Shown in pieces: positions 39,478-61,088 of a stretch of 64,000 nt of DNA. The stretch comes from Pelagerythrobacter aerophilus (lineage in GTDB: Bacteria > Pseudomonadota > Alphaproteobacteria > Sphingomonadales > Sphingomonadaceae). The notes beneath the pieces were generated by a model. That model searched no databases and was not told the origin of the DNA. It saw nothing but the letters and a program-made list of their open reading frames with translations. Position numbers and translations under genes: made by a program. The stretch's first letter is position 1; each line of letters begins with the position of its first letter. The stretch is from contig NZ_QXFK01000019.1 in assembly GCF_003581645.1 (NCBI RefSeq), positions 310,001-374,000 on the forward strand. The letters run 5' to 3'.

Positions 39478-42045
39478 ATGCACCCTGCCAGGCTAATGTT
39501 GGGAGCGGTTTGCCTTCTTACAGCTCATCTGTTGGGAGGAGCTGCCGCGGCACAGGACGACTGGGTGCCGGGCAGCAGCTATTCCGATGTTCCGACGATC
39601 GAGGACGTACTCGGATTCAAACCGATCGAGCGATTTACGAGCTTCTATGAAACCGAGAAACTGCTTCATCGCTGGGCCGAGGTTTCGGATCGCGCCAAGC
39701 TGATTACCTATGGCGAAGATTACGAGGGCAAGAAGCTCTACATGCTGGTGGTCAGCAGCCCCGAAAATCTCGCCGCCCTGGACACGCACCTCGCGAATCT
39801 CGGCAAGTTGACCGATCCGCGCAAGCTGGGCGCCGGCGAACTCGATTCCATCGTCGCAAACACGCCAGCCACAGTCATGATCTCGACGATCGACACCAGC
39901 GAGGCTTCCTCGGTCGAGGCGATGCAGATCGTCGCCTATCAGTTGCTTGCCGGCACGGATGCACGCACCCTGCGCATACTCGACAATGTCCTGACCTATA
40001 TCATACCGGTCGAGAATCCCTCTCCTCGCGAGCGCTATGTCTCGTGGTACCACACGGCCCGCAGCCGGATTCCGAAGGCCGATCCGAACGCGGCAGAGCA
40101 CAACCCGCCGTGGGGCGTCGGCAACGATTCGAACCATTATCAGCTCGATCCGAACCGCGACATGGTGCCGCTGAAGATGCGCGAAGGCCGCGCCAAGGTG
40201 GAACTGATCCGAAGATGGCGACCCGAACTCGCTCTCGACATCCACGAGATGGGCGCCGAATCGACTTTCTTCTTCCCGCCCTATCCCGAACCCTACAACA
40301 CCAACCTACCCAACGACACGCTGAAGAAGTGGTGGGAGATCTATGCGAAGGACATGCGCGAGCAGTTCGACGCGCGTGGCTGGCGATACTTTTCCGGCGA
40401 TTCGTTCGGCTCGCCGTTCCTCGGCATGCATACGCTGTACACGCAGTATCACGGTATGATCGGCATCCTCTTCGAGCAGGCGGCCGGCAGCGGCGGGCTG
40501 GTACTCGAGCGGAAGAACGGTTCGCTGCTGACGCTCCGCGACCGCGTGCAGCACCATGTCACAGGCATCATGTCCTACCTCGATACGACAGTGGCGAAGC
40601 GGCAGGAACTGCACCGCGATTTTCAGGAATTCTTCCAGTCGTCGATGGATGGTGTGCCCGGCGTCCAGCAGAAGGCCTACGCCTTCCCGCCAGACGACGA
40701 TCCGAACAAGATGTCGCAGTTCATCGACAGCCTGCTCGCCCACGGCATCGAGGTGCAGCGCACAAGCGAACCCTTCTCGGTCGGCCGAGCGAGCGGATAT
40801 TTCTCCAACGAACCGGAGCGTCACGCCTTTCCGGCTGGCACTTACATCGTTTCGCTGAAGCAGCCGCTCAGCCGCCTGGCCAACGCGCTGCTGGAGAAGG
40901 AACCTTACCATTCGATTCCGGTCTTCTACGACATCTCCGTATGGGCTCTGCCTTACCAGTACGGGATCGACGGGTACTGGATGAACGATGTGCCGCACGT
41001 CGCGATGGAATCCGTTAGCGAACCGCCATCACCCAAGGGCGAGGTGGCCGGAGGCAAGGCGGGGTTCGCCTATGTCTGGCCGTATCGCGGCGCGCTCGAC
41101 GCCGCAGCCGCCTATCGCCTCGCGGAGAGCGGGGTGAACCTGTATCTGCATCCGGGCCCGGCCACCGTCGCCGGCACTTCGTACGACGCCGCCTTCATCG
41201 CGCCGGTCGACGAGAACGACGAATCGATCCACAATCTCATGCGCGCAGTGGTCGAGGATGTCCCCGTGCGGATCGAGGCCGTTTCGACTGGCCATGCCGC
41301 CGACGGATCGGATCTCGGCTCGGGCCTGCTCCAGCCCGTCGGCAAGCCGGCCGTTGCCGTGCTAACGCGCGAGGGAACGGACACCACCGCTTGGGGCAGT
41401 TTCTACTTCTTCTTCGACGAGATGTACCATCTGCCCTTCACCCCGATCGCGGTGCCGGAGCTCGCGGAAGTCGATCTGCAGCGATACAACACGATCATCA
41501 TTCCGGACGGCGGCCAGAGCGTCAGAGATGGCGAAATCCGCGGTAAGCCCTACGAATGGTATTTCCGGGAGGAAGGCACCCAACACCTGCGCGAATGGGT
41601 TGAGCGCGGGGGCACACTCATCACGGTCAAGGGCGGTACTGCCTTCGCCTCTGCGGACGGCGGCGGGCTGACGAGCACGCAATCGCTGGGCGTGACGCAA
41701 AAGACGCCCGGCGCGATCGTTCGCGTGGAAACCCGGGGCCGCTCGCCGCTGACGACCGGTTATCCGGACACCTTCCACGTCCTGTCGAGGAACACGCGGC
41801 TGTTCTCGGCCGGCGAAAGCGGCCGTTCCGTCCTCTCCTATGTCGATGCGGAGGGGTTGAATGTCGCCGGATATCTGCTCGACGATGACTCGGCCCGCCT
41901 TGCGACGACGGATTTCCTGATGACGGAGAATATCGGCCAGGGCCGAGTGATAATGTTCGGGGAGGACCCCAACCTGCGCAACCAGTGGACCCACCTGCAT
42001 CAGTTGCTGTTCAACGCAATCCTGTTCGGACCGCTCGTGCGCTGA
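39478..42045 (+). CDS. Exported M14-type zinc carboxypeptidase with altered zinc site
   Basis: 855 aa with a signal peptide (LLTAHLLGGAAAA, cleavage near residue 25). The M14 fold covers residues about 45-380: YEGKKLYMLVVSS, then the position of the first zinc motif reads TIDTSEASSVEA instead of the usual HGxE, the substrate-Arg region is YQLDPNRDMVPL, the third ligand is His256 in LALDIHEMG, and the catalytic-Glu region is GILFEQAAGS. A long C-terminal region (residues about 600-855) looks like a glutamine-amidotransferase-like domain. Asp139 replaces the zinc His. It opens the cluster next to an amino-acid permease, so peptide or amide cleavage in the periplasm is likely, if it is active. 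Confidence 0.8.
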   Translation: MHPARLMLGAVCLLTAHLLGGAAAAQDDWVPGSSYSDVPTIEDVLGFKPIERFTSFYETEKLLHRWAEVSDRAKLITYGEDYEGKKLYMLVVSSPENLAALDTHLANLGKLTDPRKLGAGELDSIVANTPATVMISTIDTSEASSVEAMQIVAYQLLAGTDARTLRILDNVLTYIIPVENPSPRERYVSWYHTARSRIPKADPNAAEHNPPWGVGNDSNHYQLDPNRDMVPLKMREGRAKVELIRRWRPELALDIHEMGAESTFFFPPYPEPYNTNLPNDTLKKWWEIYAKDMREQFDARGWRYFSGDSFGSPFLGMHTLYTQYHGMIGILFEQAAGSGGLVLERKNGSLLTLRDRVQHHVTGIMSYLDTTVAKRQELHRDFQEFFQSSMDGVPGVQQKAYAFPPDDDPNKMSQFIDSLLAHGIEVQRTSEPFSVGRASGYFSNEPERHAFPAGTYIVSLKQPLSRLANALLEKEPYHSIPVFYDISVWALPYQYGIDGYWMNDVPHVAMESVSEPPSPKGEVAGGKAGFAYVWPYRGALDAAAAYRLAESGVNLYLHPGPATVAGTSYDAAFIAPVDENDESIHNLMRAVVEDVPVRIEAVSTGHAADGSDLGSGLLQPVGKPAVAVLTREGTDTTAWGSFYFFFDEMYHLPFTPIAVPELAEVDLQRYNTIIIPDGGQSVRDGEIRGKPYEWYFREEGTQHLREWVERGGTLITVKGGTAFASADGGGLTSTQSLGVTQKTPGAIVRVETRGRSPLTTGYPDTFHVLSRNTRLFSAGESGRSVLSYVDAEGLNVAGYLLDDDSARLATTDFLMTENIGQGRVIMFGEDPNLRNQWTHLHQLLFNAILFGPLVR

Positions 42046-42071: not shown

Positions 42072-42089
42072 TTCATACCTAAAATAATT
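42072..42089. promoter_or_regulatory. Recurrent AT-rich element, copy 2 (before the permease gene)
   Basis: TTCATACCTAAAATAATT lies 64 bp before the permease start. It shares the core TAAAATAATT with the copy at 47901-47919. It is the weakest match and could be just a promoter -10 region. Confidence 0.35.
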
Positions 42090-42153
42090 GGACCGGGACG
42101 CCGATGATGATAGGCCTGCCGATCCGGACAGAAGAAGAGTGCCTGGAGGGGTC

Positions 42154-43560
42154 GTGACCGAAGACGAAATCGTAGAACGGGAAAGCGGCCTCCAGAAAGG
42201 TCTCAGCAAGGCTCAGGTCGTGATGATCGGGCTGGGCGGCGCCATCGGCACCGGTCTCTTTATGGGTAGCGGCATCGCGATCAACTATGCTGGCCCCGCC
42301 GTCGTGCTGAGCTATCTCATCGCCAGCTTCGCTGCCGTCGTGATGGTCTTCAGCCTGTCCGAAATGGCGGTGATGCACCCTACGGCCGGATCGTTCGGCA
42401 CATATGCCGAAACCTACCTCAACCCCTGGGCCGGCTTCGTCGTTCGATACACCTACTGGATAGCGCAGGTGATCGCGATCGGGGGAGAGGCGGTGGCCGC
42501 CGGCGTTTACATGACCTACTGGATGCCGGACACGCCAGTGTGGGCCTGGTCGCTCGGCTTCGCCTTCATTCTCCTCTACGTCAATTCGCGCTCGGTCGGG
42601 GATTTCGGCACGTTCGAATACTGGTTCGCCTTCATCAAAGTGACAGCGATCGTCCTGTTCATCATTCTCGGGCTCGGCACCATCTTCGGCATTGGGACCG
42701 AGCCGGTCGGATTTCACAACCTCACCGACCTGCCGGGCGGTTTCATGCCCAACGGATGGACCGGCGTATGGATGGGGGTGCTTATCGGCATCTTCTCGTT
42801 CGTTGGCATAGAAGTCATCGCCGTCACCTCTGGCGAGACCAAGGAGCCGGAAAAGGCGATCCCCGCGGCGCTGCGCACGATGGCGCTGCGCCTTATCCTC
42901 TTCTACCTGCTGGCTCTGACGATCGTGGTGAGCTTCGTGCCGTGGACCGAATCCGGTGCCGAAGTCGTCGAGCAGAGCCCGTTCGTGAAGGTGCTGTCCT
43001 ATACGGGTATCGCACATGCCGCTGCGATCATGAATTTCGTCGTGATCAGCGCCGCCCTCTCCAGCATGAACACGAACATCTATCTCTGTTCGCGAATGCT
43101 GTTCTCGCTTTCGCGCGGTTCCTATGCCCCCAAGTTTCTCGGCAAGCTCAGCGCCAACGGAACCCCGGTCGGAGCGATCCTGACATCCGGCCTGTGCATC
43201 CTGCTCGCGGCAAGCGTTTCGGTGATAACGCCGCGCGCCTACAACTACCTGTTCGGCATTGCGATCTTCGGCGCCATCGTCGTGTGGATGACGATCCTGG
43301 TCAGTCACATCAGCTTCCGCCGACGGCACGACGTATCGCACTTGCCAGTGCGGATGCCGTTCTTCCCCTACCTCCAGATCGCCGGGCTGGCGCTTCTCGC
43401 TGCCATCCTTCTCACGATGGCCTTCGACACCGAGTTCTGGAATGTGTCGTGGATCGTGGGCGTGCCATGGCTGATCCTGATCTCCACCGCCTATTTCCTT
43501 TGGAAGCGGCGCAACCGCGCCGCCGCAGAGAGTGTGGCCCCCGACTCGCTGGTGTCCTGA
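42154..43560 (+). CDS. Amino-acid permease (APC superfamily)
   Basis: 468 aa from GTG 42154, preceded by GGAGGGG. It has 12 membrane segments. The family signature is VVMIGLGGAIGTGLFMGSG near the N-terminus, followed by ETKEPEKAIPAALRTMALR. This is the AAT group (aromatic, proline, GABA or similar amino acids) of inner-membrane proton symporters. It follows the M14 gene and probably imports the released amino acid. Substrate cannot be named. Confidence 0.9.
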   Translation: MTEDEIVERESGLQKGLSKAQVVMIGLGGAIGTGLFMGSGIAINYAGPAVVLSYLIASFAAVVMVFSLSEMAVMHPTAGSFGTYAETYLNPWAGFVVRYTYWIAQVIAIGGEAVAAGVYMTYWMPDTPVWAWSLGFAFILLYVNSRSVGDFGTFEYWFAFIKVTAIVLFIILGLGTIFGIGTEPVGFHNLTDLPGGFMPNGWTGVWMGVLIGIFSFVGIEVIAVTSGETKEPEKAIPAALRTMALRLILFYLLALTIVVSFVPWTESGAEVVEQSPFVKVLSYTGIAHAAAIMNFVVISAALSSMNTNIYLCSRMLFSLSRGSYAPKFLGKLSANGTPVGAILTSGLCILLAASVSVITPRAYNYLFGIAIFGAIVVWMTILVSHISFRRRHDVSHLPVRMPFFPYLQIAGLALLAAILLTMAFDTEFWNVSWIVGVPWLILISTAYFLWKRRNRAAAESVAPDSLVS

Positions 43561-43804: not shown

Positions 43805-44980
43805 CTAGCCTGTGAGATCGTTGAAGAAGCGGCTCATCCGGCTCATCGCCTCGTCCAATTGCTCGTGGCTGACCGAACCGAAGCAGATGCGCAGATGCCC
43901 CTCGCCGGCCGCACCGTAGAAGCTTCCCGCCTCGACCACCACACGGGCTCTTTCGAGGAGATCTTCCGCGAGGACCTGGGAAGGGCGGCCAGTCTGGGAG
44001 ACGTCCGCAAATGCGTAGATTGTGCCTTCGGGACGGGCGCAGCTCACGCCCGGCATTTGGTTGAGCGCCCTCACAACCGTATCGCGCTTCACGCGGTCGT
44101 CATCGACCATCCGCGAGACGGCTTCCATCCCGCCGGTTACGGCCGCGAGGCCGCCATATTGAATGAATGTATTGACATGGGTCACTTCGTTAGAGGTGAT
44201 CTTCATTAAGGCCGGAATAAGCTTGGCGTCGGCCGCGATATAGCCGAGGCGCCACCCATCCATCGCGTAGGCTTTGGTGAAGGCGAAAGTCGAGACGGTC
44301 CGCTCCCGCATTCCATTCAGCGCCGCAATGCTGACGTGCTCGCTGCCGTCGAACGTGATATATTCGTACACCTCGTCGGACAGAACGAACAGGTCGTGTC
44401 GGATGGCGACATCGGCGAGCCCCTCCAGTTCCTGCCGAGAGTAGACCCGGCCTGTCGGGTTGCAGGGGTTAACCAGCACGATCATCTTCGTTCTCGGCGT
44501 GACTGCCTGTTCAATCCAGTCCGACCGGATGCGGAAGTCATCAGCGGCGTCGAGCGGAACCGTGACCGCCGTACCTCCGGCCAGCTCGATCTTGCCCACA
44601 TGCTGGGGATAGTATGGTTCGAGGAGGATCACCTCGTCGCCCGGGTCAATCAGCGCGAAAATGGCCGCGAACGAAGCCTGGGTAAGCCCGTTGGTGACAA
44701 TCACCTCGTCGGGCGATGCGTCGATACGATTGAAGCTCCCGAGCTTCTCGGCGAGGGCCGCCCTGAATGCCGGTTCACCCTGGAGGTCGCCATAGTGCAC
44801 CATGCCTCCCTGAAGAGCGGCAATGGCCGCGTCCTTGATCGGCTGGGGCGTATCATGGATCGGCTTGCCAAGTTCGAGGTGTATCAAATCCTCGCCCGCC
44901 TTGCCCAATGCGGCAGCTCGCGCGAACATTCCGAAGCTCTTCTTCGAGGTGTCGGTAATTCGTCGGGCAAGCTTCGGCAT
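43805..44980 (-). CDS. PLP-dependent aminotransferase, class I/II
   Basis: 391 aa from ATG 44980. Fold-type I features: HLELGKPIHDTPQPI, IVLVNPCNPTGRVYS, LSDEVYEYITFDG, and the PLP lysine in TFAFTKAYAMDGWRLGY. It resembles the aspartate/aromatic aminotransferase group. It is the third gene of a minus-strand operon after two amidohydrolases. Likely use: transfer of the amino group from the released amino acid to give a 2-oxoacid. The exact substrate is unknown. Confidence 0.9.
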   Translation of the reverse strand: MPKLARRITDTSKKSFGMFARAAALGKAGEDLIHLELGKPIHDTPQPIKDAAIAALQGGMVHYGDLQGEPAFRAALAEKLGSFNRIDASPDEVIVTNGLTQASFAAIFALIDPGDEVILLEPYYPQHVGKIELAGGTAVTVPLDAADDFRIRSDWIEQAVTPRTKMIVLVNPCNPTGRVYSRQELEGLADVAIRHDLFVLSDEVYEYITFDGSEHVSIAALNGMRERTVSTFAFTKAYAMDGWRLGYIAADAKLIPALMKITSNEVTHVNTFIQYGGLAAVTGGMEAVSRMVDDDRVKRDTVVRALNQMPGVSCARPEGTIYAFADVSQTGRPSQVLAEDLLERARVVVEAGSFYGAAGEGHLRICFGSVSHEQLDEAMSRMSRFFNDLTG

Positions 44981-45029
44981 CGGGATCCTCGCGGCTGACC
45001 GCCACCGGCGGCCGAGTGTATGGCTGGAG

Positions 45030-46463
45030 TTAGCGCTGCTCGCGCCTGAGAGGGAAATTGCCGCCGGCAAGCGGCAGCTTGTCTTCATCGATCAACTCGC
45101 CGCCCTTCATCACCCACACAATCTGCTTGGCATTGTTGATGTCGACCGTCGGATCGGCGCTGAGCAGGACCATATCGGCGAGCTTGCCGGGCTCGATCGA
45201 CCCGAGTTCGTCCGCCTTGCCCAGATGCTTCGCGCCGTTGAGCGTCGCGATCGTGACAATGCGGGCAGCGGGAACCCCGGCGGCCTGCAACAACTCCATC
45301 TCGCGGTGGACGGCGGGCCCGAGCGTCTGGTCCGTCGCGATGGCGATCACGCCACCGGCGGCGTCGATCATGCGCATGTTCTCCTGCGCGACCGGCGTCA
45401 TCAGTTTCATCCACCAGGTCCAGCCGCGTTCCTTCCACGCGGGTAAGGTCTCGGTCTTGAGCTTGTCGATCTCCTCAGCGCTGTAGGACGCCTGGTAGAG
45501 CGGCTGATCGAGAAATTCGGGATGTTCGACCAGGCGGCTGTAGCCCTCGCCGATAGTCAGGGTGGTCGCCATCGGCGTCTTCTTGGCGCCCATCAGTTTC
45601 GCGAATTCCTCGGTGATCGGGCCCTGGATGACCGGATGGGCGAGGCTGTCGACCCCGGCGAAAATCGCCTCGGTCGCACGCAGTTCGCTTGAGGTATGGG
45701 CGGTGGTCCGGATGCCGTGCCGGTTCACCTCGAGGATGATGTCCTGCATGAGATCCAGGGGCAGAAGGCTGATAAGCGGACGCGTACCCCAGCCGTGCTC
45801 GTCGAGCGTCAGCTTCACGATATCGGGCTTCTGCTCCTTCAGGTATTCGAGAAGCGCCGGCTTGTCCTCGCTCCAGTCGTCGATCTCGATCGCCATGCCG
45901 CTGCCGTGGCTCCCCGGATAGGTGACGAGATTTCCGGTGGCGAAAATGCGCGGCGAGAGAATTTCTCCGGCGCGTTCTTCCGCGCGAAGACCGAGAATAT
46001 GCTCGGGCACGTTTCCGGCGTCGAAAACGGTGGTGACACCCGAATAGAGATAGCTAGCCAGCGCCTCGAGGCCGGCTTCGTGAGCGGTCGCCGCGTCCGC
46101 CGCGACCTGCGCCGGAGGAGGAGGCGTCGCCTGCGGGTTGGTCCGGTCTACGCCGACCATCCGCCGGCCATCGCCGCCGCGCGCACCCTTGAGATGGATG
46201 TGTACATCCATCAGCCCCGGGATCAGGTATCGGCCGGAACCGTCGATGTGCCGGCCGGGCACTTCGGGCGCGACGGCGGTCGGCGTGACGAACGTGATGC
46301 GGCCATCTTCGACGCCGACCGACATGTCCGTCTGGTTCGGCTGACCGGTGCCGTCGATGAGGGTTACGTTCTCGATCACGAGATCCTCGGCCAGGGCCGG
46401 GGTGGTCAGGACCAGCGCAAGCGCACTCGCGCACGCGGCGAAACGGGAGGGGAATCCGATCAT
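45030..46463 (-). CDS. Exported metal-dependent amidohydrolase 1 (imidazolonepropionase-like)
   Basis: 477 aa from ATG 46463 with ribosome site AAAGGAGT. A signal peptide (RFAACASALALVLTTPALA) is followed by the amidohydrolase barrel: metal HxH in GLMDVHIHLKG, then IVKLTLDEHGWG (possible metal Lys), RTTAHTSSE, DSLAHPVIQG and AIATDQTLG. Related exported enzymes cleave Xaa-Pro/Xaa-Arg dipeptides or N-acyl amino acids. Its start is 5 bp from the end of the paralogous gene upstream. Confidence 0.85.
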   Translation of the reverse strand: MIGFPSRFAACASALALVLTTPALAEDLVIENVTLIDGTGQPNQTDMSVGVEDGRITFVTPTAVAPEVPGRHIDGSGRYLIPGLMDVHIHLKGARGGDGRRMVGVDRTNPQATPPPPAQVAADAATAHEAGLEALASYLYSGVTTVFDAGNVPEHILGLRAEERAGEILSPRIFATGNLVTYPGSHGSGMAIEIDDWSEDKPALLEYLKEQKPDIVKLTLDEHGWGTRPLISLLPLDLMQDIILEVNRHGIRTTAHTSSELRATEAIFAGVDSLAHPVIQGPITEEFAKLMGAKKTPMATTLTIGEGYSRLVEHPEFLDQPLYQASYSAEEIDKLKTETLPAWKERGWTWWMKLMTPVAQENMRMIDAAGGVIAIATDQTLGPAVHREMELLQAAGVPAARIVTIATLNGAKHLGKADELGSIEPGKLADMVLLSADPTVDINNAKQIVWVMKGGELIDEDKLPLAGGNFPLRREQR

Positions 46464-46468
46464 CAGGG

Positions 46469-47857
46469 TCACTCCTTTACTTCCGCGCCGTCGCGCTTGA
46501 ACACGATGCCATCGCGCATGACGAAGCTGACGCTCGAGACAGCGTTGATGTCTGCGGTGGGGTCGCCGTCCAGGGCGATCACGTCCGCTACCATGCCCGG
46601 CGCCAGTGTGCCGCGATCCTTCAGGCCGGCCGCGTCTGCGGCGTTGACCGTCGCGGTCTTCAGTGCCTCGACCGGGGTCATTCCCGCTTCGACATATTCC
46701 ACCATCTCCTGCGCGTTGGTGCCGTGCGGCGCTATGCCGCTGTCGGTACCCAGTGCGATCGGTGTTCCAATCTCGATCGCCATGCGCACCAGCTTTTTCG
46801 GCTGATCTCCCAGCTTCAGCAGCTTGTTCAGTGATGCCGGATTGATGTCCTTCATCGGGCCCCGAAGGACTTTTTCCGGCGTATCGCCCACCCAGGTGAT
46901 CGGCCATACCGTCGGGATTAGGTAAGTCCCGCGCTGCTTCATCAGCTGCAGGCTTTCCTCGTCCGCCCACATGCCATGCTCGATGGAATCGTAGCCTGCC
47001 CGAACGGCCGCATCGATGCCGCCTTTGCCATGCGCATGCGTGGTAACTTTGCGGCCCATCGAGTGAGCTGCGTCAGCGATCGCCGTCAGCTCCTCGTCGG
47101 TAAACTGCTGCTCCGTGCCTGCGTCGGACGGATCGAGCACGCCCCCGGTGACGTGGACCTTGATCACGTCGGCGCCATACTTGATGGCGGCACGGGTGGC
47201 GCGGCGGCAATCGTCTGCACCGTCGCAGACATTGTCATGCGGCTCAGCGTCAAGAAATGCGCGTTTCATGCCGTGCGAATCGCCGTGTCCGTTTGTGGGA
47301 CTGATTCCCTCTCCTGCAGCAATGATGTGCGGGCCGGGGACAACGCCGTAATCGATCGCATCGCGAAGGGAGAAGATGGCGGCATTCGGCGCGCCGAGAT
47401 CGCGGATCGTCGTGAATCCGGCCATCAAGGTGGCGAGCGCGTTGGTATAGCCATTGAGTGCGAAAAAGGCATCTTCCTCCCGAAGGCGCAAGCCCGGGTA
47501 ATGCTCTGCAATACCGCTCCCTGTCACATGAACGTGGAGATCCATGAAGCCGGGCAGAACCCACTTTGATGACAAGTCGATCAACTGCGCGTCAGGAGGC
47601 AAGCCCAGTTCCGCTGCGCTCCTGAAACCCTCCTCGATCGACCGGACCTTGCCGTCCACCGTCACCAGCGTGGCGTTGGCCATCACAGGCTTTCCTGGCT
47701 CCACGATAAGATGCCCCGCATGGATTATGGCCGGCAGGGCCGTTCTCGCTGCCGGATGAGCTGGCTGGCCCGGCTCGACATTTCGCTGGGCCGCGGCCGG
47801 GATAGCCAGGCTAATGGCTGCGCAAGCAGTAAGGGTCAGGGCTTTGAACAGGCGCAT
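46469..47857 (-). CDS. Exported metal-dependent amidohydrolase 2 (imidazolonepropionase-like)
   Basis: 462 aa from ATG 47857 with ribosome site GGGGGAGT. Signal peptide LTLTACAAISLAIPAAAQ. The metal set is complete: MDLHVHVTG, DVIKVHVTGG (carboxylated Lys position), KVTTHAHG, SIEHGMW and ALGTDSG. The family includes Xaa-Pro dipeptidases, carboxypeptidase-like and aryl-amide hydrolases. It heads the minus-strand operon amidohydrolase 2, amidohydrolase 1, aminotransferase, and diverges from the class V aminotransferase gene. Confidence 0.86.
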   Translation of the reverse strand: MRLFKALTLTACAAISLAIPAAAQRNVEPGQPAHPAARTALPAIIHAGHLIVEPGKPVMANATLVTVDGKVRSIEEGFRSAAELGLPPDAQLIDLSSKWVLPGFMDLHVHVTGSGIAEHYPGLRLREEDAFFALNGYTNALATLMAGFTTIRDLGAPNAAIFSLRDAIDYGVVPGPHIIAAGEGISPTNGHGDSHGMKRAFLDAEPHDNVCDGADDCRRATRAAIKYGADVIKVHVTGGVLDPSDAGTEQQFTDEELTAIADAAHSMGRKVTTHAHGKGGIDAAVRAGYDSIEHGMWADEESLQLMKQRGTYLIPTVWPITWVGDTPEKVLRGPMKDINPASLNKLLKLGDQPKKLVRMAIEIGTPIALGTDSGIAPHGTNAQEMVEYVEAGMTPVEALKTATVNAADAAGLKDRGTLAPGMVADVIALDGDPTADINAVSSVSFVMRDGIVFKRDGAEVKE

Positions 47858-47900
47858 CTCTACTCCCCCGTTGACGCTGCGCAGACTCGGCAGCCTATTG

Positions 47901-47919
47901 CTATAAGCATAAAATAATT
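47901..47919. promoter_or_regulatory. Recurrent AT-rich element, copy 3 (divergent promoter)
   Basis: CTATAAGCATAAAATAATT lies in the 76-bp gap between divergent amidohydrolase 2 and class V aminotransferase genes. It is the best match to copy 1. One site could control both directions. Confidence 0.5.
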
Positions 47920-47933
47920 CTATTCCGCGCAGA

Positions 47934-49127
47934 ATGTCCAGTCTCGATTCCATTGCCCAGCAAACTTCGTCGCAAAGCGATCGTCTGGAGTTCGCGCGCC
48001 GCCGCTTCACGACGCTGGAAAGGCTCGCCTACATAAACAGCGGATCGTACGGCTTGCTGAGCGACACAGTGCGCTTGGCGATCGACGATTACATGGACCA
48101 CCGGGTGGCGGTCGGCGCGGACTGGGATCTCTGGGTCGCACGGGCGGAGAGCGTCCGCGACAAGATGGCGCGGCTGCTCAATGCGAAACGGGACGAGATC
48201 GCCATCACGGCGTCGGCTTCTGCCGGCATCAATGCGCTCGCAACAGCGCTCGATTTTTCCGGCGACCGGACCAAGGTCCTGGTGAGCAACTACGAGTTCC
48301 CGACGAGCGGACAGATCTGGCACGCGCAGGAACGTCGTGGCGCCGTGGTCGAACATGTGGCGGAAGACGTATCGGGGCTCATCCCTCCGGAGCATTTCGC
48401 CGACCTGATCGACGAGCGAACACGGATCGTGGTGCTGTCGCATGTTTGCTACAGGCATGGCGGCAAGTTTTCGGACGAGAGCATCAGGGCTATCGCCGAA
48501 ATGGCCCATCGTCAGGGCGCCTATGTGATCCTCGATTGCTTCCAGTCCGTCGGTGCCCAGGCGATCGATGTGAAGAAGCTGGGCGTGGATTTCGCGGTCG
48601 GCGGAATGTACAAGTACCTGCTGGGAACGGCGGGAAGTGGTTTCCTATACGCGCGGCAGGAACGGATCGCCGATCTGGTGCCCACGGCGTCCGGATGGTT
48701 CGCCCAAGACGATGTCGGCGCGATGAATATTTTTGCGAACGAGCCGAGCCGAGCGGCCAGCCGCTTTCAGGCCGGCACGCCGCCCGTCCTGAGCTGCTAT
48801 GCTGCCGATGCCGGACTCGAGATCATTCTGGAATACGGTGTCGAAGCGATCGCGGCGCGGGTAGCAGAGCTCACCCGCTACGCGCTCAACCGGTTCACCG
48901 CGGAAGGCTTTACCGTGATGACGCCCGCAGATGAGCGCTCGCGCGGGCCGATGCTGGCTCTCAAGGCGCAGGATCCCTCCACCCTCGTGGCCAGGTTGAT
49001 CGAACAGGGTGTAGTGACATCGTATCGCGAGAGTAATCTTCGAGCGGGCTTCCACTTCTACAACGATAAAAGTGATACCGACCGGCTCGTCGACGCCTTG
49101 CGGGCCAATCGAGACCTACTCGCCTAA
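47934..49127 (+). CDS. Class V aminotransferase / kynureninase-fold PLP enzyme
   Basis: 397 aa. Fold-type I class V features: AYINSGSYGLLSDTV, AITASASAGINALATAL, AYVILDCFQSVGAQAID, and the PLP lysine in VGGMYKYLLGTAGSGFLY. The family includes cysteine desulfurases, kynureninases and isopenicillin-N epimerases. I cannot fix the reaction. Position beside amidohydrolases and a CDGSH-cupin gene suggests amino-acid or kynurenine-like cleavage. Its stop overlaps that of the convergent CDGSH-cupin gene by four bases. Confidence 0.85.
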   Translation: MSSLDSIAQQTSSQSDRLEFARRRFTTLERLAYINSGSYGLLSDTVRLAIDDYMDHRVAVGADWDLWVARAESVRDKMARLLNAKRDEIAITASASAGINALATALDFSGDRTKVLVSNYEFPTSGQIWHAQERRGAVVEHVAEDVSGLIPPEHFADLIDERTRIVVLSHVCYRHGGKFSDESIRAIAEMAHRQGAYVILDCFQSVGAQAIDVKKLGVDFAVGGMYKYLLGTAGSGFLYARQERIADLVPTASGWFAQDDVGAMNIFANEPSRAASRFQAGTPPVLSCYAADAGLEIILEYGVEAIAARVAELTRYALNRFTAEGFTVMTPADERSRGPMLALKAQDPSTLVARLIEQGVVTSYRESNLRAGFHFYNDKSDTDRLVDALRANRDLLA

Positions 49128-50188
49128 TAATTTATGCTCGGATTATCGCCGGGGTAGATGACGCCGACCACGTCCATCCCCGCTGCCCCGATGCATTCGA
49201 GGGAATGGGCGTGCTTGCGAGGCAGGAAGATCACGTCCCCGGCTGTGACATCGGTACAGCTCTCCTCGTTCCACAGAATTCCTTCGCCCGAGAGCACGAT
49301 CAGCGCCTCCTCGTAGAGATGGCGATGCATCTCCGCACGGGACTGCGGGATATGCCCGATGAACTGCGCCGCGCCTTCGAGGCCGGCCGCCTTGTCGACG
49401 AGCATCTGAAAATAGCGCGGCCCCATTTCGGAGCGCATGGTTTGATCGACGCTCACCAAGCGATTTGGGAAGCGAGCGTCAAACTCGGACGTCGGCGTCG
49501 CTACCTGCTCAAGCTCCTCGACCCCGGGAAGAGTGGAGACGAAGAGCCGGCAGTCTGCCGGACTCGCAATGCGGAACCATTCATTGGGGTGCACGTGCAG
49601 ACCGTCTCCCTCTCGAACTGCGAAGTCGCGGCCGGAGATCGTGACCGATCCGGAGCCCCGCGCGAGGAACAGGACCATATCCGCCGATCCAGTGCCGAAG
49701 GCAGGTGAAGAACCGGACTTCAACTCGACAAGGAACAGCGCCTGATGCTCAGCACCCAGTGAGCGGCTGATGATCTTCAACGTACGGGAATGCGCGCCTT
49801 GCCCGCCCGCCATCCGAGCAGGACTTGCAACATAGCAGCGCCCATCGAGCCTTGCGATCCCATCGGCAGCCGTCGTCGAGCGGCGAAGTGCCCCGCGTTC
49901 TTCGTCGCTGCGCAAATCCGTGCTGTAGCCGCCGGGAAGATTGTTGTGTGTACCGTCGCAAAACGGCGGTGTGCCGGTACGCTTGCAGCCGCAGAGAAGC
50001 ACTTCTTCGTCTGCCCGCGGCCGGTACACGAGCGGTTTGAAGGCAGTTCCTTCATGCGATCGTCCATCACAAAACGGCTGGCGTTCCGACCGGCCGCAAC
50101 GACACCAGGCTATCGGCCGATTCGCTTTGAGCTCGCGGTAATAGGGTTTGGGGCTGGCGATCACCGCTTCTTGCAGAGCGTCGCTCAT
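49124..50188 (-). CDS. Tandem CDGSH iron-sulfur motifs fused to a bicupin
   Basis: 354 aa. Residues 29-45 read CRCGRSERQPFCDGRSH (Cys29, Cys31, Cys40; His45 one residue further than usual), and residues 66-81 read CGCKRTGTPPFCDGTH (Cys66, Cys68, Cys77, His81, canonical). Two cupin domains follow. The first (about 140-235) lacks a proper HxH metal pair. The second (about 260-354) has MHRHLYEEALIVLSGEG and LPRKHAHSLE, a complete 3-His/1-Glu metal site. A Fe-S/non-haem metal dioxygenase or isomerase is plausible. Its ATG overlaps the stop of the MarR gene, so the two are coupled. Function unknown. Confidence 0.82.
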   Translation of the reverse strand: MSDALQEAVIASPKPYYRELKANRPIAWCRCGRSERQPFCDGRSHEGTAFKPLVYRPRADEEVLLCGCKRTGTPPFCDGTHNNLPGGYSTDLRSDEERGALRRSTTAADGIARLDGRCYVASPARMAGGQGAHSRTLKIISRSLGAEHQALFLVELKSGSSPAFGTGSADMVLFLARGSGSVTISGRDFAVREGDGLHVHPNEWFRIASPADCRLFVSTLPGVEELEQVATPTSEFDARFPNRLVSVDQTMRSEMGPRYFQMLVDKAAGLEGAAQFIGHIPQSRAEMHRHLYEEALIVLSGEGILWNEESCTDVTAGDVIFLPRKHAHSLECIGAAGMDVVGVIYPGDNPSINY

Positions 50189-50706
50189 TGTCGAGGCTCT
50201 TCCGAAGAGGCAGCCAGCGAATCCTTGAGTTCTGCAAGGAGGTCGTAGAGCTGCTGGCTGTGATCGGCGGACATTCCGGCAAACATGTCGGCGATCCAGT
50301 GGTGGTGCCCCGCAGCAACCTCTTTGAAGTGTGCGCGCCCGGACCGGGTGATCCGCACCAGCCAGGAGCGACGATCCTGGGGATCACGTTCCATCTGCAG
50401 GTGGCCCTGCCGCTCGAGCTGTCGGACGAGCGCCGTCAGATTTCCGCCCGACACCAGCAGCGCACGCGACAGCTCTCCCATCGTCATCCCAGCGGCGCGG
50501 CGGTCGAGAGCGGCGAGCACATCGAATCGGGGCAATGTGGTGGCAAAATCTTCCGCCAGGCGCCGGCGCAGCCGCTTCTCTATCGTCAGCGAGCATGTGA
50601 GCAGCCGCAACCACAGCCGCACCGCGGCCGGCTCAGACACCGCGTCGTAGTGCTTTTCCGCCAGGACGTAATCCGGCGCGCGCGATTTCGAACGTTCCTG
50701 ATTCAT
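50185..50706 (-). CDS. MarR-family transcriptional regulator 1
   Basis: 173 aa. Winged helix-turn-helix: LPRFDVLAALDRRAAGMTMG, GELSRALLVSGGNLTALVRQ, ERDPQDRRSWLVRITRSG. MarR proteins are dimeric, ligand-released repressors, often of catabolic genes. It diverges from the TonB receptor gene across 391 bp that hold a strong palindrome, its likely operator, and is coupled to the CDGSH-bicupin gene. Confidence 0.92.
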   Translation of the reverse strand: MNQERSKSRAPDYVLAEKHYDAVSEPAAVRLWLRLLTCSLTIEKRLRRRLAEDFATTLPRFDVLAALDRRAAGMTMGELSRALLVSGGNLTALVRQLERQGHLQMERDPQDRRSWLVRITRSGRAHFKEVAAGHHHWIADMFAGMSADHSQQLYDLLAELKDSLAASSEEPRQ

Positions 50707-56017: not shown

Positions 56018-57529
56018 TCACGAGGCGAACCGCAACTCCGCGATAGCGCCGTCCAATGTCGTGCCTGCCTCGTCCGCGAGCGCCGCTTCGCGCAAGCGGC
56101 GCAAAGTAGGCGCAGCGTCAGGTTCGAACTTGATTGTCTCCCATACATCCATGATCAGACCAAACCTCGACATTCCCCGCTCGAACGTGTCGCCGTAGCC
56201 CTTGATCAACTGCTGACACTCGACCAGCTCGGCCGCGGTGGCCGGATCTATCCGGGCCGCACTCCGGATGCGGTTTAGCCACAGGAGGATTCTCTCCTGT
56301 TCGATCGCGTAGCGAAGGGTGGTCCTGCGCCACCGGCGCATCCCGGAAAGCAGCGCAAGAATAACGAACCAGCGGATACTCGTTATCTCGACATGGCGCC
56401 CTTTTCGGAAGAGCGGCCGCAGCCAAGACGATAGAGTGCCGCTCGCGAGTATGCGGCGGCCAATCGCCGCGGGCAGGGTTTCGCACACCTCTTCCAGGCG
56501 GGGATGCATATACTCGATAACATCGAGAACATCCTGTGGCCGCGCCCTGACTTCCTCGCGTACGCGCTCGAAGCGGCTGGCCCTCACCTTGAGGTCTGCA
56601 ACGCGTATCGTGTCGTCATAGCTCATCCAGAGGGCGAGGTACCGCGCCGTCTCGCAGGTCAGCCGCCAATCCTCCTCACCGGTATCCAGTTCCCGAACCG
56701 ATGTAAGACGCTCGAGGTAGAGCTCCGCATAGGCAGCGTCCTGATAGTCCATCAAGCGCCGCACGGCGTGAATCGCGAATGCGTGAGCCGGCTCGGGTAG
56801 CGACTCGTGAATGCGCCGCAGAAAGGCGCGGCCCTTCTTCGTGGTGGGAGCGGGCAGGTGGTGTATCTCGGCGGGCCGTCCGGTCTCGCCAGCCAAGGCT
56901 CTGGCGCCGGCCTCGAAGGCTGCCAAGTTGGAAGCCACGGCTCTGCCGCCCGCGCGTATGGCTTGCTCGAATGCCGCCTGCGGGAAAGACAGCGCCCCAC
57001 TTCCGGCGAGCGCGCCGAACATGACCGCGCTTATCATGCTGCCGTGCTGCTCCGCGATCTCGTTCATATCGAAAGCGACGAAGCGCCGGGCTTTCCGTTT
57101 GGCCGCATCCAGAATGCGTTCACCGCTCGCCCGACCGTCGGCCATCGCCGACTTCTCGGAAATTGCGTAGACACGGTGGGTCGAGCCGATCAGGGTGGTG
57201 CGATCCTCGGCCACGAACCCTCGCAGGACGGCTCGACCGACCTCCATCAGTTCCGAGGCTATGACGATGTCGACATCGCCGGGCACCGGCATAAGCGCGA
57301 GAATCGGCTCACCGCCGCTCACCGAGGCGTGATCCTCCGGATAAAGCTCGATGTAATATACAGTAGCGCCCGTGCGCTGGGCCACCCCCGGCACGGAGGT
57401 GCTCTGCGCGATATAGCCTTGCTGCCGGCCGACTTCGGCGATCCACTCGGCAAGAACGCCGCCACCTTCGCCGCCCAGTGCGAGGATGGCGATTGTGATA
57501 CGCTGACGCGTCAGGGATTCACCCGCCAT
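56018..57529 (-). CDS. iorB: Indolepyruvate-type ferredoxin oxidoreductase, beta (gamma-domain) subunit
   Basis: 503 aa. N-terminal 2-oxoacid:acceptor oxidoreductase gamma domain: ILALGGEGGGVLAEWIAEVG, STSVPGVAQRTGATVYYIEL and HGSMISAVMFGALAGSGAL. The C-terminal ~280 residues are a helical extension seen in the long proteobacterial subunit. With IorA it oxidatively decarboxylates arylpyruvates to acyl-CoA, passing electrons to ferredoxin. It starts 3 bp after iorA. Confidence 0.88.
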   Translation of the reverse strand: MAGESLTRQRITIAILALGGEGGGVLAEWIAEVGRQQGYIAQSTSVPGVAQRTGATVYYIELYPEDHASVSGGEPILALMPVPGDVDIVIASELMEVGRAVLRGFVAEDRTTLIGSTHRVYAISEKSAMADGRASGERILDAAKRKARRFVAFDMNEIAEQHGSMISAVMFGALAGSGALSFPQAAFEQAIRAGGRAVASNLAAFEAGARALAGETGRPAEIHHLPAPTTKKGRAFLRRIHESLPEPAHAFAIHAVRRLMDYQDAAYAELYLERLTSVRELDTGEEDWRLTCETARYLALWMSYDDTIRVADLKVRASRFERVREEVRARPQDVLDVIEYMHPRLEEVCETLPAAIGRRILASGTLSSWLRPLFRKGRHVEITSIRWFVILALLSGMRRWRRTTLRYAIEQERILLWLNRIRSAARIDPATAAELVECQQLIKGYGDTFERGMSRFGLIMDVWETIKFEPDAAPTLRRLREAALADEAGTTLDGAIAELRFAS

Positions 57530-57532
57530 GAT

Positions 57533-59659
57533 TCAGAAGGCCCTTCGGGCAAGGGACTGGTGGGTCCATCGCTGCCACGCAGCGATCACCGATGTGCGCA
57601 TCCGGTTGCGAATACGATCCCAGCCAGTTGGATTGATCACGATCCGCGCCTTGTAGAAGGATGGGCAGAGGACGGCTGCGTGGCTGACCTCACCGCATAC
57701 GCCGCAACCGACGCAACTGTTCTCGACATGCGCTATCGGATCCTCGCGCAAGGGGTCCGGGTTGGGCTTGATCGTGAGTGAGGGACAGCCCGACAGCCGG
57801 ATGCAGCTGTGATCGCCCGTGCAAGTATCCGGATCTACCCCGAACCGCTCCCGAACTACCCGCTTCCCGGCACTGACGGCCTTCATCATCGCCGGCCGGA
57901 CGCGCCGCTGGCGATTGAGCTGGCATTCCGACTGCGCGACAATGACCTTCGGGCCCTTCTCCTTACTGGTCAGAGCCTCTCGCAACATGTCACGCATGCC
58001 GCCGACGTCGTATGTCCGCGTCAATGTCCTCACCCATCTCACGCCGATACCGCGCACCGCGCGTTCGATGGGATGACGGGTTCGGCGGACGGCATTTTCT
58101 GCGCGAGACGAAAGAATGTCCTGGCCGCCGGTAGCAGCAGAATATCCGTTGTCGACGATGATGGTGAGGTTGTCGTCCTTGTTGAAGACAGCGTTCCCGA
58201 TGCCCGACGTCAACCCGTTGTGCCAGAAGCCGCCGTCCCCCATGATTGCGATGGCCCTCTTGTCCCGCGGCTTGAAAGCCGAAGCTCCCGCCGTTCCCAG
58301 ACCATAGCCCATGGTCGTGTTGCCAATGTTGAACGGCGGCAGGATTGAGAAAAGGTGACAACCGATATCTGCAGAAACGTGGAACTGTCCGAGTTCACGC
58401 TGGACCAGTTTCATCGCCGAAAAAATGGGCCGCTCGGGACAGCCTGTACAGAAACCCGCCGGACGGGCCGGCACATCGGCGGGACCAAGCGGCGCGGGAG
58501 ATTCCGACTCACTCGCCGGGGCGAGGTCAGGCGCCCACTGGGCCAGAAACCGGGTCACCCCGTCCTGCAGGACGGCGCCGGTGTACTCGCCGGCACGCGG
58601 CAGAATCGCTTTTCCGAGCACCTGCGTCTGGAGGTCAGCGCGCCTGATCAGGGTATTCAGTTCATGCTCGATGAATTCGGGCTGCCCCTCCTCAATCACC
58701 AGCACAGCACGCTTTCCAGCGCAGAAGTCCTGCACCTCGTCCGGAATCAGCGGATAGGTTACGTTGAGGACGTAAACCGGCAATTTTGCGTTGCCGAAAG
58801 AATCGGAAATGCCGATCAGCTCGAGGGCTCGGTTAAGCGTGTTGAAAAGGCCTCCCTGAACGATGATGCCGACCTCCGCGTCGGCATCGGTCCCAAACCA
58901 TTCGTTCAGCCGGTGCTCCTGAATGAAGCGCACCGCCGCCGGCCAGCGATGTTCGATCTTCTCGGTCTCGTGCTGGAAATTCGCCGGCGGCAGGACGATC
59001 CGGTCGACGTCGCGGTGCGGCGCCTCGGCCGCCTCGCCGACGGTCAGTGGCGGGGACCGGTTCTCGCGTGCCGTGAATGTTCCGGTCTGATGGCAGCCCC
59101 GGACGCGCATCTCGAACAGAACGGGCGTGTGGGAAGCTTCCGAAAGTTCGAAGCTGCGCTCCACAAGATCGACGATCAATGAATGGTTCGGCCGGGGATC
59201 GATCAGCCACATCTGCGATTTCATGGCAAACGCGTGCGTGCGTTCCTGCATGATCGAGGAACCTTCACCGTAGTCTTCGCCAACGATCACGAGCGCTCCG
59301 CCCGTGACGCCGCCCGAGGCGATGTTGGAGAGGGCATCGGACGCCACATTCGTTCCGACAACCGACTTCCAGGCGACCGCGCCTCGAAGCGGATAGTTGA
59401 CCGACGCCGCCAACATTGCCGCGGCTGAGGCTTCGCTGGCGCTCGCCTCGAAATGAACGCCCAGTTCCTGCATGAGTTCGTTCGCATCCGCGAACACGTC
59501 CATAAGGTGAGATATCGGGGAGCCTTGATATCCGCCCACGTAGGCGACCCCGGACTGGAGGAGCCCCTTCGTTACCGCAAGGATACCCTCGCCGTGGAAG
59601 AGCTCGCCGTCACCCTTGCGGAGCTTCTCGACCTCGGATTTGAACGAACGCTCCGCCAT
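57533..59659 (-). CDS. iorA: Indolepyruvate-type ferredoxin oxidoreductase, alpha subunit
   Basis: 708 aa. N-terminal pyrimidine-binding region (YVGGYQGSPISHLMDVFAD). C-terminal TPP domain IMGDGGFWHNGLTSGIGNAV with IIVDNGYSAATGGQDI. At the end, two Fe-S cluster motifs: CTGDHSCIRLSGCPSL and CVGCGVCGEVSHAAVLCPSF. This domain order matches IorA. The reaction in other species converts indolepyruvate, phenylpyruvate or 4-hydroxyphenylpyruvate plus CoA to arylacetyl-CoA and CO2. It lies 3 bp after the cyclase gene. Confidence 0.92.
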   Translation of the reverse strand: MAERSFKSEVEKLRKGDGELFHGEGILAVTKGLLQSGVAYVGGYQGSPISHLMDVFADANELMQELGVHFEASASEASAAAMLAASVNYPLRGAVAWKSVVGTNVASDALSNIASGGVTGGALVIVGEDYGEGSSIMQERTHAFAMKSQMWLIDPRPNHSLIVDLVERSFELSEASHTPVLFEMRVRGCHQTGTFTARENRSPPLTVGEAAEAPHRDVDRIVLPPANFQHETEKIEHRWPAAVRFIQEHRLNEWFGTDADAEVGIIVQGGLFNTLNRALELIGISDSFGNAKLPVYVLNVTYPLIPDEVQDFCAGKRAVLVIEEGQPEFIEHELNTLIRRADLQTQVLGKAILPRAGEYTGAVLQDGVTRFLAQWAPDLAPASESESPAPLGPADVPARPAGFCTGCPERPIFSAMKLVQRELGQFHVSADIGCHLFSILPPFNIGNTTMGYGLGTAGASAFKPRDKRAIAIMGDGGFWHNGLTSGIGNAVFNKDDNLTIIVDNGYSAATGGQDILSSRAENAVRRTRHPIERAVRGIGVRWVRTLTRTYDVGGMRDMLREALTSKEKGPKVIVAQSECQLNRQRRVRPAMMKAVSAGKRVVRERFGVDPDTCTGDHSCIRLSGCPSLTIKPNPDPLREDPIAHVENSCVGCGVCGEVSHAAVLCPSFYKARIVINPTGWDRIRNRMRTSVIAAWQRWTHQSLARRAF

Positions 59660-59662
59660 CGG

Positions 59663-60442
59663 TCAGCCTTCGACGAAGGCCAGAACCCGCAAGGGGCTGC
59701 CCGACCCTCCCTCGATTTTCAACGGCGAGGCGACCACCAGCGAGCCGGTTGGCGGCAGCTGGTCAAGATTGGTCAGACATTGCAGGCCGTATCGACCCGC
59801 ACCGTGGAAGAGGGCGTGTGCCGGATAAGGCGGATCGAGCAAATGGGCCTGGCCCGCATCGGTGCCGATGGTTTCCACACCCAAGCCGTGGGCATCGCGT
59901 TCCTCGATCAGGAAACGCACAGCTTCCACCGTAGGTCCGGGGGTATGGGCGCCGTCTTCCTGCAGGTTCACGTATTCTTCGACCTGCCGCTTGGACCAGT
60001 CGGTACGAAGCAGAATCCAACTGCGGGAGGGAATGCGGCCGTGGACGCCTTCCCATTCCTGGATATCCGCGACCGTCAGAAGGTAATCCGGATTTTCGGC
60101 CGCAGCGGCCGAGATATCGATTACGACCGCTGGCGCGACAAAGTCATTCGGGTCAATGGCATCGAGGGTGTTCCTCGGGAGATCGCGCCCCGTCACCCAA
60201 TGAACGGGAGCATCGAAGTGCGTGCCGGTGTGCTCGCCTACAGTGAAGTTATTCCAGTACCAGGCAACCCCACGCTCGTCGTAACGGGATATCTCCTCCA
60301 TCGAGAAACCGGCGCATTGACCGAATTGGGGAGGCAGGACAAGAGTTGGCGTATCTGGTGAGAGGATCTGTGTTAGATCGACGGTCCGTATCCGTCCCGA
60401 CGCCATGCCTGAAGCGAATGCCTGCAATGTCTCCGCTGCCAT
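59663..60442 (-). CDS. Cyclase-family metal hydrolase (kynurenine formamidase-like)
   Basis: 259 aa with ribosome site AGAGGAGAGG before ATG 60442. The family metal motif is complete: GEHTGTHFDAPVHWVTG (HxGTHxDxPxH). Other signatures are VDLTQILSPDTPTL and GVETIGTDAGQAHL. Relatives hydrolyse N-formylkynurenine, isatin or cyclic amides. It heads the minus operon with iorA and iorB, so a link to indole/tryptophan-type substrates is attractive but not proven. Confidence 0.88.
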   Translation of the reverse strand: MAAETLQAFASGMASGRIRTVDLTQILSPDTPTLVLPPQFGQCAGFSMEEISRYDERGVAWYWNNFTVGEHTGTHFDAPVHWVTGRDLPRNTLDAIDPNDFVAPAVVIDISAAAAENPDYLLTVADIQEWEGVHGRIPSRSWILLRTDWSKRQVEEYVNLQEDGAHTPGPTVEAVRFLIEERDAHGLGVETIGTDAGQAHLLDPPYPAHALFHGAGRYGLQCLTNLDQLPPTGSLVVASPLKIEGGSGSPLRVLAFVEG

Positions 60443-60488: not shown

Positions 60489-60500
60489 TTGCAAATGCAA
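60489..60500. promoter_or_regulatory. Candidate MarR2 operator (TTGCAAATGCAA)
   Basis: A perfect 5-2-5 inverted repeat in the 118-bp gap between the divergent cyclase and marR2 genes. Its position suits control of both directions by MarR2. Confidence 0.6.
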
Positions 60501-60560
60501 TCAATTGGTCGGTCTCAACGGATCCGGGGTAACAAAATTGTGCGAGAAAGGGGGGAGCTG

Positions 60561-61088
60561 ATGCAGGACCCGCGGGAGCTTGGAGATCCCGGAACGGCGG
60601 CGTTCCAGCTCGAAAAATATCCGTTCTATCTGCTCAATCGTCTGGTGAGCCGGTACAATCTGGTGATCGAGGCCCGCTTGAAAGCGGTCGGAATAGATAT
60701 TCCCTACTGGCGGGTGCTCATGGTGCTGGGTGAAAAGAGCCCGCGAAGCGTCGGGCAGCTTGCCGAGGCTGCCGTGATCCCGCTTTCGACCATGACCCGC
60801 ATCGTCCAGCGGATGGTAACGGCAAGGCTCGTGGCGTGCCGCCCGCTTGAAAGGGACAACAGGGTGGTCAAGGTAACGATGACGGCTGAAGGCAAGCGGA
60901 AGCTTTCCGAAGCCCGGACGATCACCGCGCCGGTTTACGCGCAGATCATCCAGGGCTTCTCGATCGAGGATTTCGAGCATCTGACGAACAGCCTCGACCA
61001 GATGCACACAAATCTGGAAGTGCTCGTTCCCGGCAGAAGAAACGGTGATTCAGCGGCCGGAACCGAGTCTAGGATCCCGATCAGCTAA
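60561..61088 (+). CDS. MarR-family transcriptional regulator 2
   Basis: 175 aa from ATG 60561 with ribosome site GGGGGGAG. Winged helix-turn-helix: IPYWRVLMVLGEKSPRSVGQ, LAEAAVIPLSTMTRIVQRMV, ERDNRVVKVTMTAEGKRKL. It diverges from the cyclase-iorAB operon and converges on the RidA operon, overlapping the RidA 3' end by 8 bases. It probably controls one or both. Confidence 0.92.
   Translation: MQDPRELGDPGTAAFQLEKYPFYLLNRLVSRYNLVIEARLKAVGIDIPYWRVLMVLGEKSPRSVGQLAEAAVIPLSTMTRIVQRMVTARLVACRPLERDNRVVKVTMTAEGKRKLSEARTITAPVYAQIIQGFSIEDFEHLTNSLDQMHTNLEVLVPGRRNGDSAAGTESRIPIS

Follow-up and report, generated by a model that had tools for sequence, protein, structure and literature searches.

What does a protein do in which two CDGSH iron-sulfur motifs are joined to a pair of cupin barrels? 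The question is raised by a single open reading frame (ORF) on the reverse strand (49124..50188; 354 amino acids, no internal stop) of a stretch of 64,000 nucleotides from the genome of Pelagerythrobacter aerophilus, which we call the window. An initial annotation of the window had proposed that a [2Fe-2S] centre passes electrons to a mononuclear metal site in this protein, making it a new oxygenase or a redox-switched sensor. We find that the fusion is a conserved protein family and that its gene recurrently stands beside a kynureninase-like gene, called c1 in the following. On the evidence of its domains and neighbours the fusion protein is probably a metal-dependent enzyme of tryptophan/kynurenine-type catabolism.

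From its N to its C terminus, the protein consists of a tandem CDGSH domain of the kind known as type-6 CISD, a cupin barrel without metal ligands and a cupin barrel with four of them. Pfam matches zf-CDGSH in two stretches with 61.4 bits (cut-off 29.5) and Cupin_2, likewise in two stretches, with 58.0 bits (cut-off 27.2). The initial annotation had noticed one extra residue in the first of the two N-terminal motifs, and reading the motifs bears this out. Motif 1 (C29-H45; 50054..50104) is C29-x-C31...C40-D-G-R-S-H45, in which Arg43 (codon 50060-50062) is added ahead of the Ser-His; motif 2 (C66-H81; 49946..49993) is C66-x-C68...C77-D-G-T-H81. The motifs lie 20 residues apart, and a spacing of about 20 is the type-6 value in the searched text of Lin et al. 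2011 (PMC3174974). With two CDGSH motifs, 3Cys-1His ligands and this spacing, the N-terminal part belongs to type 6, and the closest PDB sequence matches of residues 7-84 are the CISD of Magnetospirillum (MmCISD, 3tbn) and human CISD3/MiNT (6avj). Both zf-CDGSH matches of the whole genome (E up to 0.001) fall within the fusion gene.

The remainder of the protein was annotated as a degenerate and an intact cupin, which Pfam, the alignment and an AlphaFold2 model corroborate. The first barrel (about residues 134-220; 49529..49789) has lost its metal ligands, and the second (about residues 258-345; 49154..49417) keeps the set H288-x-H290-x3-E294 plus H328. The model has a mean predicted local distance difference test (pLDDT) score of 88.9 with 29 alignment rows and 82.6 with 15; it matches bicupins, and barrel fold and profile score together place the protein in the cupin superfamily. 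Pfam found no output, DNA-binding or signalling domain in it.

No characterised protein with this layout emerged from searches of Pfam, NCBIfam, the PDB (by sequence and by fold) and the literature, as the initial annotation had supposed. The database searches return separate domains or folds only. Among the literature matches listed there is no description of the layout (papers outside that literature may exist). The words cupin and CDGSH stand together in a single paper there, on a different subject, and cupins are not mentioned in the searched texts of the CISD surveys PMC5859297 and PMC3174974. Both the CISD type and the fold are known; what we have not found described is their conserved combination.

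How common is the combination? One scan of a collection of species genomes gave 36 loci, 15 of which match both parts and 21 the CDGSH part only; near the latter, neither a bicupin nor c1 was found at E 1e-4. The 15 two-part relatives share 43-70% identity and come from Alpha- and Gammaproteobacteria and a metagenome-assembled genome (MAG) of Acidobacteria. A full-length fusion is present in one of seven genomes sampled from the genus, in 6 of 199 genomes sampled from the family (own genome counted), in 26 of 246 sampled from the order, with a contig-end stump in one more (G277), and in 2 of 398 sampled from the phylum (own genome and G735). Beyond the sphingomonads it occurs in Woeseiaceae, in other MAGs of Gammaproteobacteria and in one MAG each of Hyphomicrobiales and Acidobacteria. 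A bicupin-only profile run against the 398 phylum genomes for CDGSH-less bicupins (E 1e-12) returned nothing beyond the full fusions of the own genome and G735. The family is thus spread widely but patchily, and the layout is conserved within it; open full-length relatives in many genomes rule out an artefact or a frameshift fusion of a single genome.

Conservation of the ligands was counted over 46 rows of the alignment, with the mis-extracted L067 left out. All 46 retain the cupin set H-x-H-x3-E...H. The CDGSH domain is carried by 44 rows (the exceptions are L124 and L125), all 44 keep the four cluster ligands of motif 2, and 43 keep those of motif 1. An insertion in motif 1 is found in ten rows (CDGRSH in eight, CDGKSH and CDSVSH in one each), all from one sphingomonad clade of 11, whose eleventh member, L007, is without it. 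As a trait of one clade the insertion is tolerated and is not the essence of the family, and we rejected it as a functional novelty.

The partner gene c1 (47934..49127, forward strand; ORF, Pfam, NCBIfam and PDB evidence) encodes a class V pyridoxal phosphate enzyme that is kynureninase-like, with a score under the kynureninase cut-off. In the window it converges on the fusion gene, the 3' ends of the two overlapping by 4 bases. Across 45 fusion records (44 loci and the window, after removal of the duplicates L095, L099 and L115), with gene frames taken from rough frame picking and not from a gene caller, c1 is the commonest neighbour: it is found in 31 and is directly adjacent in 21, and in 13 of these adjacent pairs the two genes share a strand and are 8-35 bases apart. 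A finer labelling by BLAST covered 47 records, including the stump L126 and the plasmid record L133 and not counting a weak c1 match in L117 (24%). By this labelling 34 records have a kynureninase-family gene close to the fusion, c1-type in 30 and canonical in four. Of the canonical genes, those of L124 and L125 score over the NCBIfam cut-off; for L012 and L010 (in the latter a partial piece at a contig end) the assignment comes only from alignment or BLAST. The linkage also holds between genomes. In the 246 genomes of the order, the fusion occurs in 27 (26 full and the stump), c1 in 25 (over 370 bits, the next best match having 229.5) and both in 23, which gives a Fisher p of about 4e-26, a value inflated by relatedness, as genus g112 alone supplies 11 of the 23 co-occurrences.

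What kind of enzyme is c1? It matches KYNU_C in Pfam, its best PDB sequence match is the kynureninase 1qz9 (113 bits), and Lys227 and a C-terminal Arg, to which we ascribe kynureninase-type roles, are invariant. Unlike kynureninase, it scores only 105.6-106.1 bits against the kynureninase model TIGR01814 in the own genome (G000), far under the cut-off of 246.4, and all 15 aligned c1 rows have Gln (Q204, Q258) where three canonical rows have the His of the DxxH and GWxGH motifs. A cysteine desulfurase was considered, as the SufS model scores higher (138.7 against 106.1 bits), but both scores are far under their NCBIfam cut-offs. The best PDB match is a kynureninase, and the c1 rows read R-x-x-x-H-x-Y-N where we take the catalytic Cys of SufS to be located; we therefore dropped this assignment. 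The own genome has a canonical kynureninase (285.4 bits) on another contig, beside tryptophan 2,3-dioxygenase (TDO). By these comparisons c1 represents a conserved, divergent subfamily of kynureninase-like enzymes and shares its genome with a canonical kynureninase; it is probably a kynureninase-like hydrolase with an altered substrate or role.

The wider surroundings are catabolic in appearance. A flavoenzyme of the 2-aminobenzoyl-CoA monooxygenase/reductase type is encoded in 34 of the 35 genomes that have either the fusion or its bicupin (all except G271), where the 35 include G229 and G217, with a bicupin that has no CDGSH domain, and G277 with its stump. It lies within the sampled flank in 12 of the 47 fusion records, weak matches in L102 and L121 (26-28% identity) not being counted. 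In the own genome it stands past the right edge of the window, 14.5 kb from the fusion gene, together with a short-chain dehydrogenase/reductase (SDR), and a 2-aminobenzoyl-CoA-type operon continues there. Pfam divides it into FAD_binding_3 and Oxidored_FMN, a two-domain make-up that we take to be that of the Azoarcus 2-aminobenzoyl-CoA monooxygenase/reductase. Against the NCBI model "bifunctional salicylyl-CoA 5-hydroxylase/oxidoreductase" it reaches 1284 bits (cut-off 1078), and the copies of L098 and L111 stay under the cut-off with 1010 and 999 bits. The pathway of 2-aminobenzoyl-CoA monooxygenase/reductase is described in PMC4539516.

Haem enzymes of the TDO superfamily are found near the fusion in 5 of the 47 records. 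Those of L124 and L125 are TDO itself; those of L098 (10482-11675), L105 (13741-15030) and L133 (15095-16276) are PrnB-type enzymes near both fusion and c1, tested with Pfam in L098 and assigned by BLAST in L105 and L133. The genomes of L098 and L105 have no match to the TDO family PF03301. TDO presence was rejected as a correlate of the fusion, as it is not enriched (28 of 35 fusion genomes against 187 of 246). A symporter of the SNF family is near the fusion in 15 of the 47 records, and a Novosphingobium plasmid, whose gene frames were again picked roughly, unites within about 20 kb an SNF symporter, c1, the fusion, a PrnB-type enzyme, amidohydrolases, oxidoreductase subunits and a Cyclase-family protein. 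Another island, which also holds fusion and c1, includes a Glu_synthase-family gene (L102:1681-3312).

In the window, a MarR-family regulator gene (50185..50706, reverse strand; ORF and Pfam) lies directly upstream of the fusion gene, with a stop/start overlap of 4 bases. On the other side of the fusion gene, profile searches (Pfam and NCBIfam) found three genes on the reverse strand: an amidohydrolase resembling Xaa-Pro dipeptidase, under the cut-off of that model (46469..48010; the true start probably lies further in), a second amidohydrolase (45030..46970; the long 5' extension is probably untranslated) and a class I/II aminotransferase (43805..45088). Pfam adds, on the forward strand, an amino acid permease (42088..43560) and a member of the M14 zinc carboxypeptidase family (39478..42045). 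Upstream of the regulator there is a receptor-like frame (51059-54082; TonB type by eye) with a gene for an oxygenase that combines tetratricopeptide repeats (TPR) with a 2-oxoglutarate-Fe(II) domain (54169-55974), a pair that recurs in L003, L004 and L101. It is followed on the reverse strand by genes for an indolepyruvate oxidoreductase beta-type subunit, over the NCBIfam cut-off (56018..57529; Pfam and NCBIfam), and an alpha-like subunit, under it (57533..59659; same searches). Next comes a Cyclase-family (PF04199) hydrolase (59663..60442, reverse strand), which profile searches put far under the KynB cut-off and which we presume may be isatin-hydrolase-like; it adjoins the oxidoreductase subunits in the window as well as in L105 and L133. 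Beyond it are a MarR-like frame on the forward strand (60489..61088; BLAST only, 38% to a MarR of the c10 cluster) and, on the reverse strand, a RidA-family protein (61081..61542), a 4HBT-family thioesterase (61488..61922), an acyl-CoA dehydrogenase (61919..63220; all three by Pfam) and a member of the enoyl-CoA hydratase family (63088..63963; profile searches).

This neighbourhood argues for an enzyme that acts on a compound of the tryptophan or kynurenine class, and it is consistent with the amino-acid-derived substrates at which the initial annotation had guessed. The setting would be an island for aerobic catabolism of the tryptophan/kynurenine type, with 2-aminobenzoyl-CoA as its end point. 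In the mechanism that we propose, the second cupin would bind one Fe or Mn ion through H288, H290, E294 and H328 and transform an aromatic amino acid, or the compound formed directly from it, in a step that adjoins that of c1. The N-terminal CISD would carry two [2Fe-2S] clusters, these would most likely pass electrons to the cupin metal, and the reaction would be an oxygenation. Redox chemistry is favoured because a cupin site of three His and one Glu is common among oxygenases. The fusion partners of other CISDs point the same way: in the searched texts of PMC5859297 and PMC3174974 they are Glu_synthase, Fer4_19 and Rieske_2 domains, besides a ferritin-like one. We hold the complete mechanism, from clusters through cupin metal to oxygenation, only tentatively. 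More doubtful is a bolder form of it, a Rieske-like oxygenase made from unrelated parts, in which the cupin would receive its electrons from the tandem CDGSH domain and oxygenate a kynurenine-class compound, with a divergent kynureninase as partner, on a second route from tryptophan to anthranilate.

Several observations weigh against the proposed mechanism or against the pathway assignment. L124 and L125, both from one genus, have no CDGSH domain and keep the cupin ligands intact, so some members do without the clusters; these two relatives stand beside TDO and kynureninase and speak against an obligatory electron relay. In a midpoint-rooted tree (rows over 400 amino acids trimmed to their last 360 residues) they branch inside the family, which suggests a loss of the CDGSH domain, although another rooting could make its absence ancestral. 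On the other hand, the genome of L125 (G217) has a CISD match elsewhere, and a separate CISD could help. L117 (G199; L117:3299-4447), on a long branch, reads CDGSQ in motif 1 and has lost the His ligand. Bicupin fold and sequence searches return hydrolases, decarboxylases and dioxygenases alike. As for the pathway, 13 of the 47 records are without a kynureninase-family gene in the sampled flank, the fusion occurs without c1 over 370 bits in G218, G343, G204 and G199, and G209 and G276 have c1 but no fusion. The flavoenzyme is also present in 6 of 15 genomes without the fusion (the comparison genomes for flavoenzyme, KynB and kynureninase were hand-picked), and the island is not the only route of its own genome, which has canonical TDO and kynureninase elsewhere. 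Of the initial proposal, the layout is upheld as a conserved architecture that keeps its cluster ligands and one mononuclear metal site; electron transfer between them would be a putative function, and L124 and L125 weaken the relay as an obligatory step.

The main rival to an oxygenase is a metal-dependent hydrolase, for example an N-formylkynurenine or N-formylanthranilate formamidase that would act between a TDO or PrnB-type dioxygenase and a kynureninase-type enzyme, with the CISD as a gate or stabiliser. The loss of the CISD would be easier to bear for such an enzyme, and the CDGSH-less bicupins (L124:1013-1738, L125:2419-3231) lie divergently upstream of TDO, with the canonical kynureninase further along the TDO strand. 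KynB was not found over its cut-off in these two genomes, of which G229 is only 66% complete. More generally, KynB over the cut-off is rarer with the fusion or its bicupin (3 of 35 genomes) than in TDO-positive genomes without it (18 of 45; Fisher p 0.002, or 0.005 if a split fragment in G218 is counted), but relatedness is not corrected for and 27 of the 45 comparison genomes are without KynB over the cut-off as well. The top fold matches include the hydrolases YlbA (1rc6) and DR1152 (1sfn), but the ligand pattern is unlike that of YlbA; in G201 and G021, which have both fusion and c1, a TDO-KynB-KynU operon is present elsewhere, and the searched texts of PMC5859297 and PMC3174974 mention no CISD-hydrolase fusion. 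On balance we consider a hydrolase unlikely. Could the protein be a non-haem substitute for TDO, which opens the indole ring for c1? PF03301 gave no match in seven of the 35 fusion or bicupin genomes, of which six have a kynureninase over the cut-off (the seventh, G735, stays under it with 215 bits), and the islands L103 and L116 hold c1 and fusion without a TDO or PrnB-type gene in the sampled stretch. But 28 of the 35 genomes also have TDO, a PrnB-type haem enzyme is nearby in L098, L105 and L133, and two of the seven, G236 and G269, are fragmented assemblies with genus mates here that are mostly TDO-positive; this role is highly unlikely.

CISD clusters are sensitive to redox state and to nitric oxide (NO). 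One study (PMC10937110), going by its title, reportedly deals with a destabilisation of CISD3 by nitric oxide. In a redox or metabolite sensor, labile clusters would report O2, NO or iron, and the bicupin would bind a kynurenine-type ligand and control c1 or the flavoenzymes. The overlap of the fusion gene with the MarR regulator gene in the window would fit, but Pfam found no output domain, the 3His-Glu metal site is intact and the commonest conserved neighbours are enzymes and transporters. A pure sensor, the other half of the initial proposal, is less likely given that the protein has no DNA-binding or signalling domain and often stands among catabolic genes, and we regard the sensor as quite unlikely. 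Similarly, it is quite improbable that the fusion has an unrelated role, such as iron or cluster delivery, and is linked to c1 through shared islands only. The flanks without a kynureninase-family gene, for example in L007, L011, L014 and L113, would be in line with this; the genome of L007 (G215), however, has both genes, on separate long contigs, and the two repeatedly stand side by side, in Alpha- as well as in Gammaproteobacteria (L009, L015).

Most of what is known of CDGSH proteins comes from human disease genes, and the role of their clusters is debated. A conserved bacterial fusion of such a domain with a metal-enzyme fold, if tied to a pathway and to a partner gene, would allow a direct test of whether a CDGSH cluster can drive or gate catalysis. 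The kynureninase-like partner c1 is new here; the findings point to a kynureninase-like subfamily that has not been characterised and to a step in the tryptophan catabolism of sphingomonads that is still unassigned.

How does the fusion compare with known systems? It shares with the type-6 CISDs (3tbn, 6avj) the tandem CDGSH motifs, their spacing of about 20 residues and the 3Cys-1His ligands, but these proteins stand alone, whereas the fusion adds a bicupin and, in one clade, the inserted residue of motif 1. In the type-5 CISD, a type-6 domain with the FMN domain of glutamate synthase according to the searched text of Lin et al. 2011 (PMC3174974), the CISD is likewise an N-terminal module of an enzyme, but the partner there is a flavoenzyme and here a bicupin. 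The sole NCBIfam match of the fusion is (R)-mandelonitrile lyase, with 24.9 bits far from the cut-off of 140. The 3-hydroxyanthranilate 3,4-dioxygenase family gave no match (E limits 0.1 for Pfam and 0.001 for NCBIfam), and a profile made from the bicupin alignment matched nothing in the PDB at 1e-6. Among the best fold matches are bicupins of the ureidoglycine aminohydrolase family (YlbA/AllE 1rc6, DR1152 1sfn, 4e2q), with 15-18% identity. In AllE the metal presumably sits in the C-terminal barrel, and we take Glu-x-His-x3-His as the ligand pattern of AllE/YlbA. The fusion departs from it: at the ligand positions YlbA reads E-T-H-V-Q-E-H and the fusion H-R-H-L-Y-E-E, so that only the middle His is common with 1rc6, and membership in AllE was rejected because of the differing ligands. 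Quercetin 2,3-dioxygenase (YxaG, 1y3t) and other bicupin dioxygenases are alike in fold and in a 3His-Glu cupin metal site, which we assume for quercetinase; they differ in sequence (14-15% identity) and have no CISD, and the fusion has only one equipped cupin. The Rieske family was not found in the fusion protein by Pfam, and the Rieske ring-hydroxylating oxygenases, such as anthranilate 1,2-dioxygenase, would be alike only if a [2Fe-2S] cluster feeds a mononuclear Fe in the fusion as well. Their folds are unrelated to those of the fusion, and the Rieske cluster is held by 2Cys-2His, in contrast to the 3Cys-1His of the CDGSH motifs.

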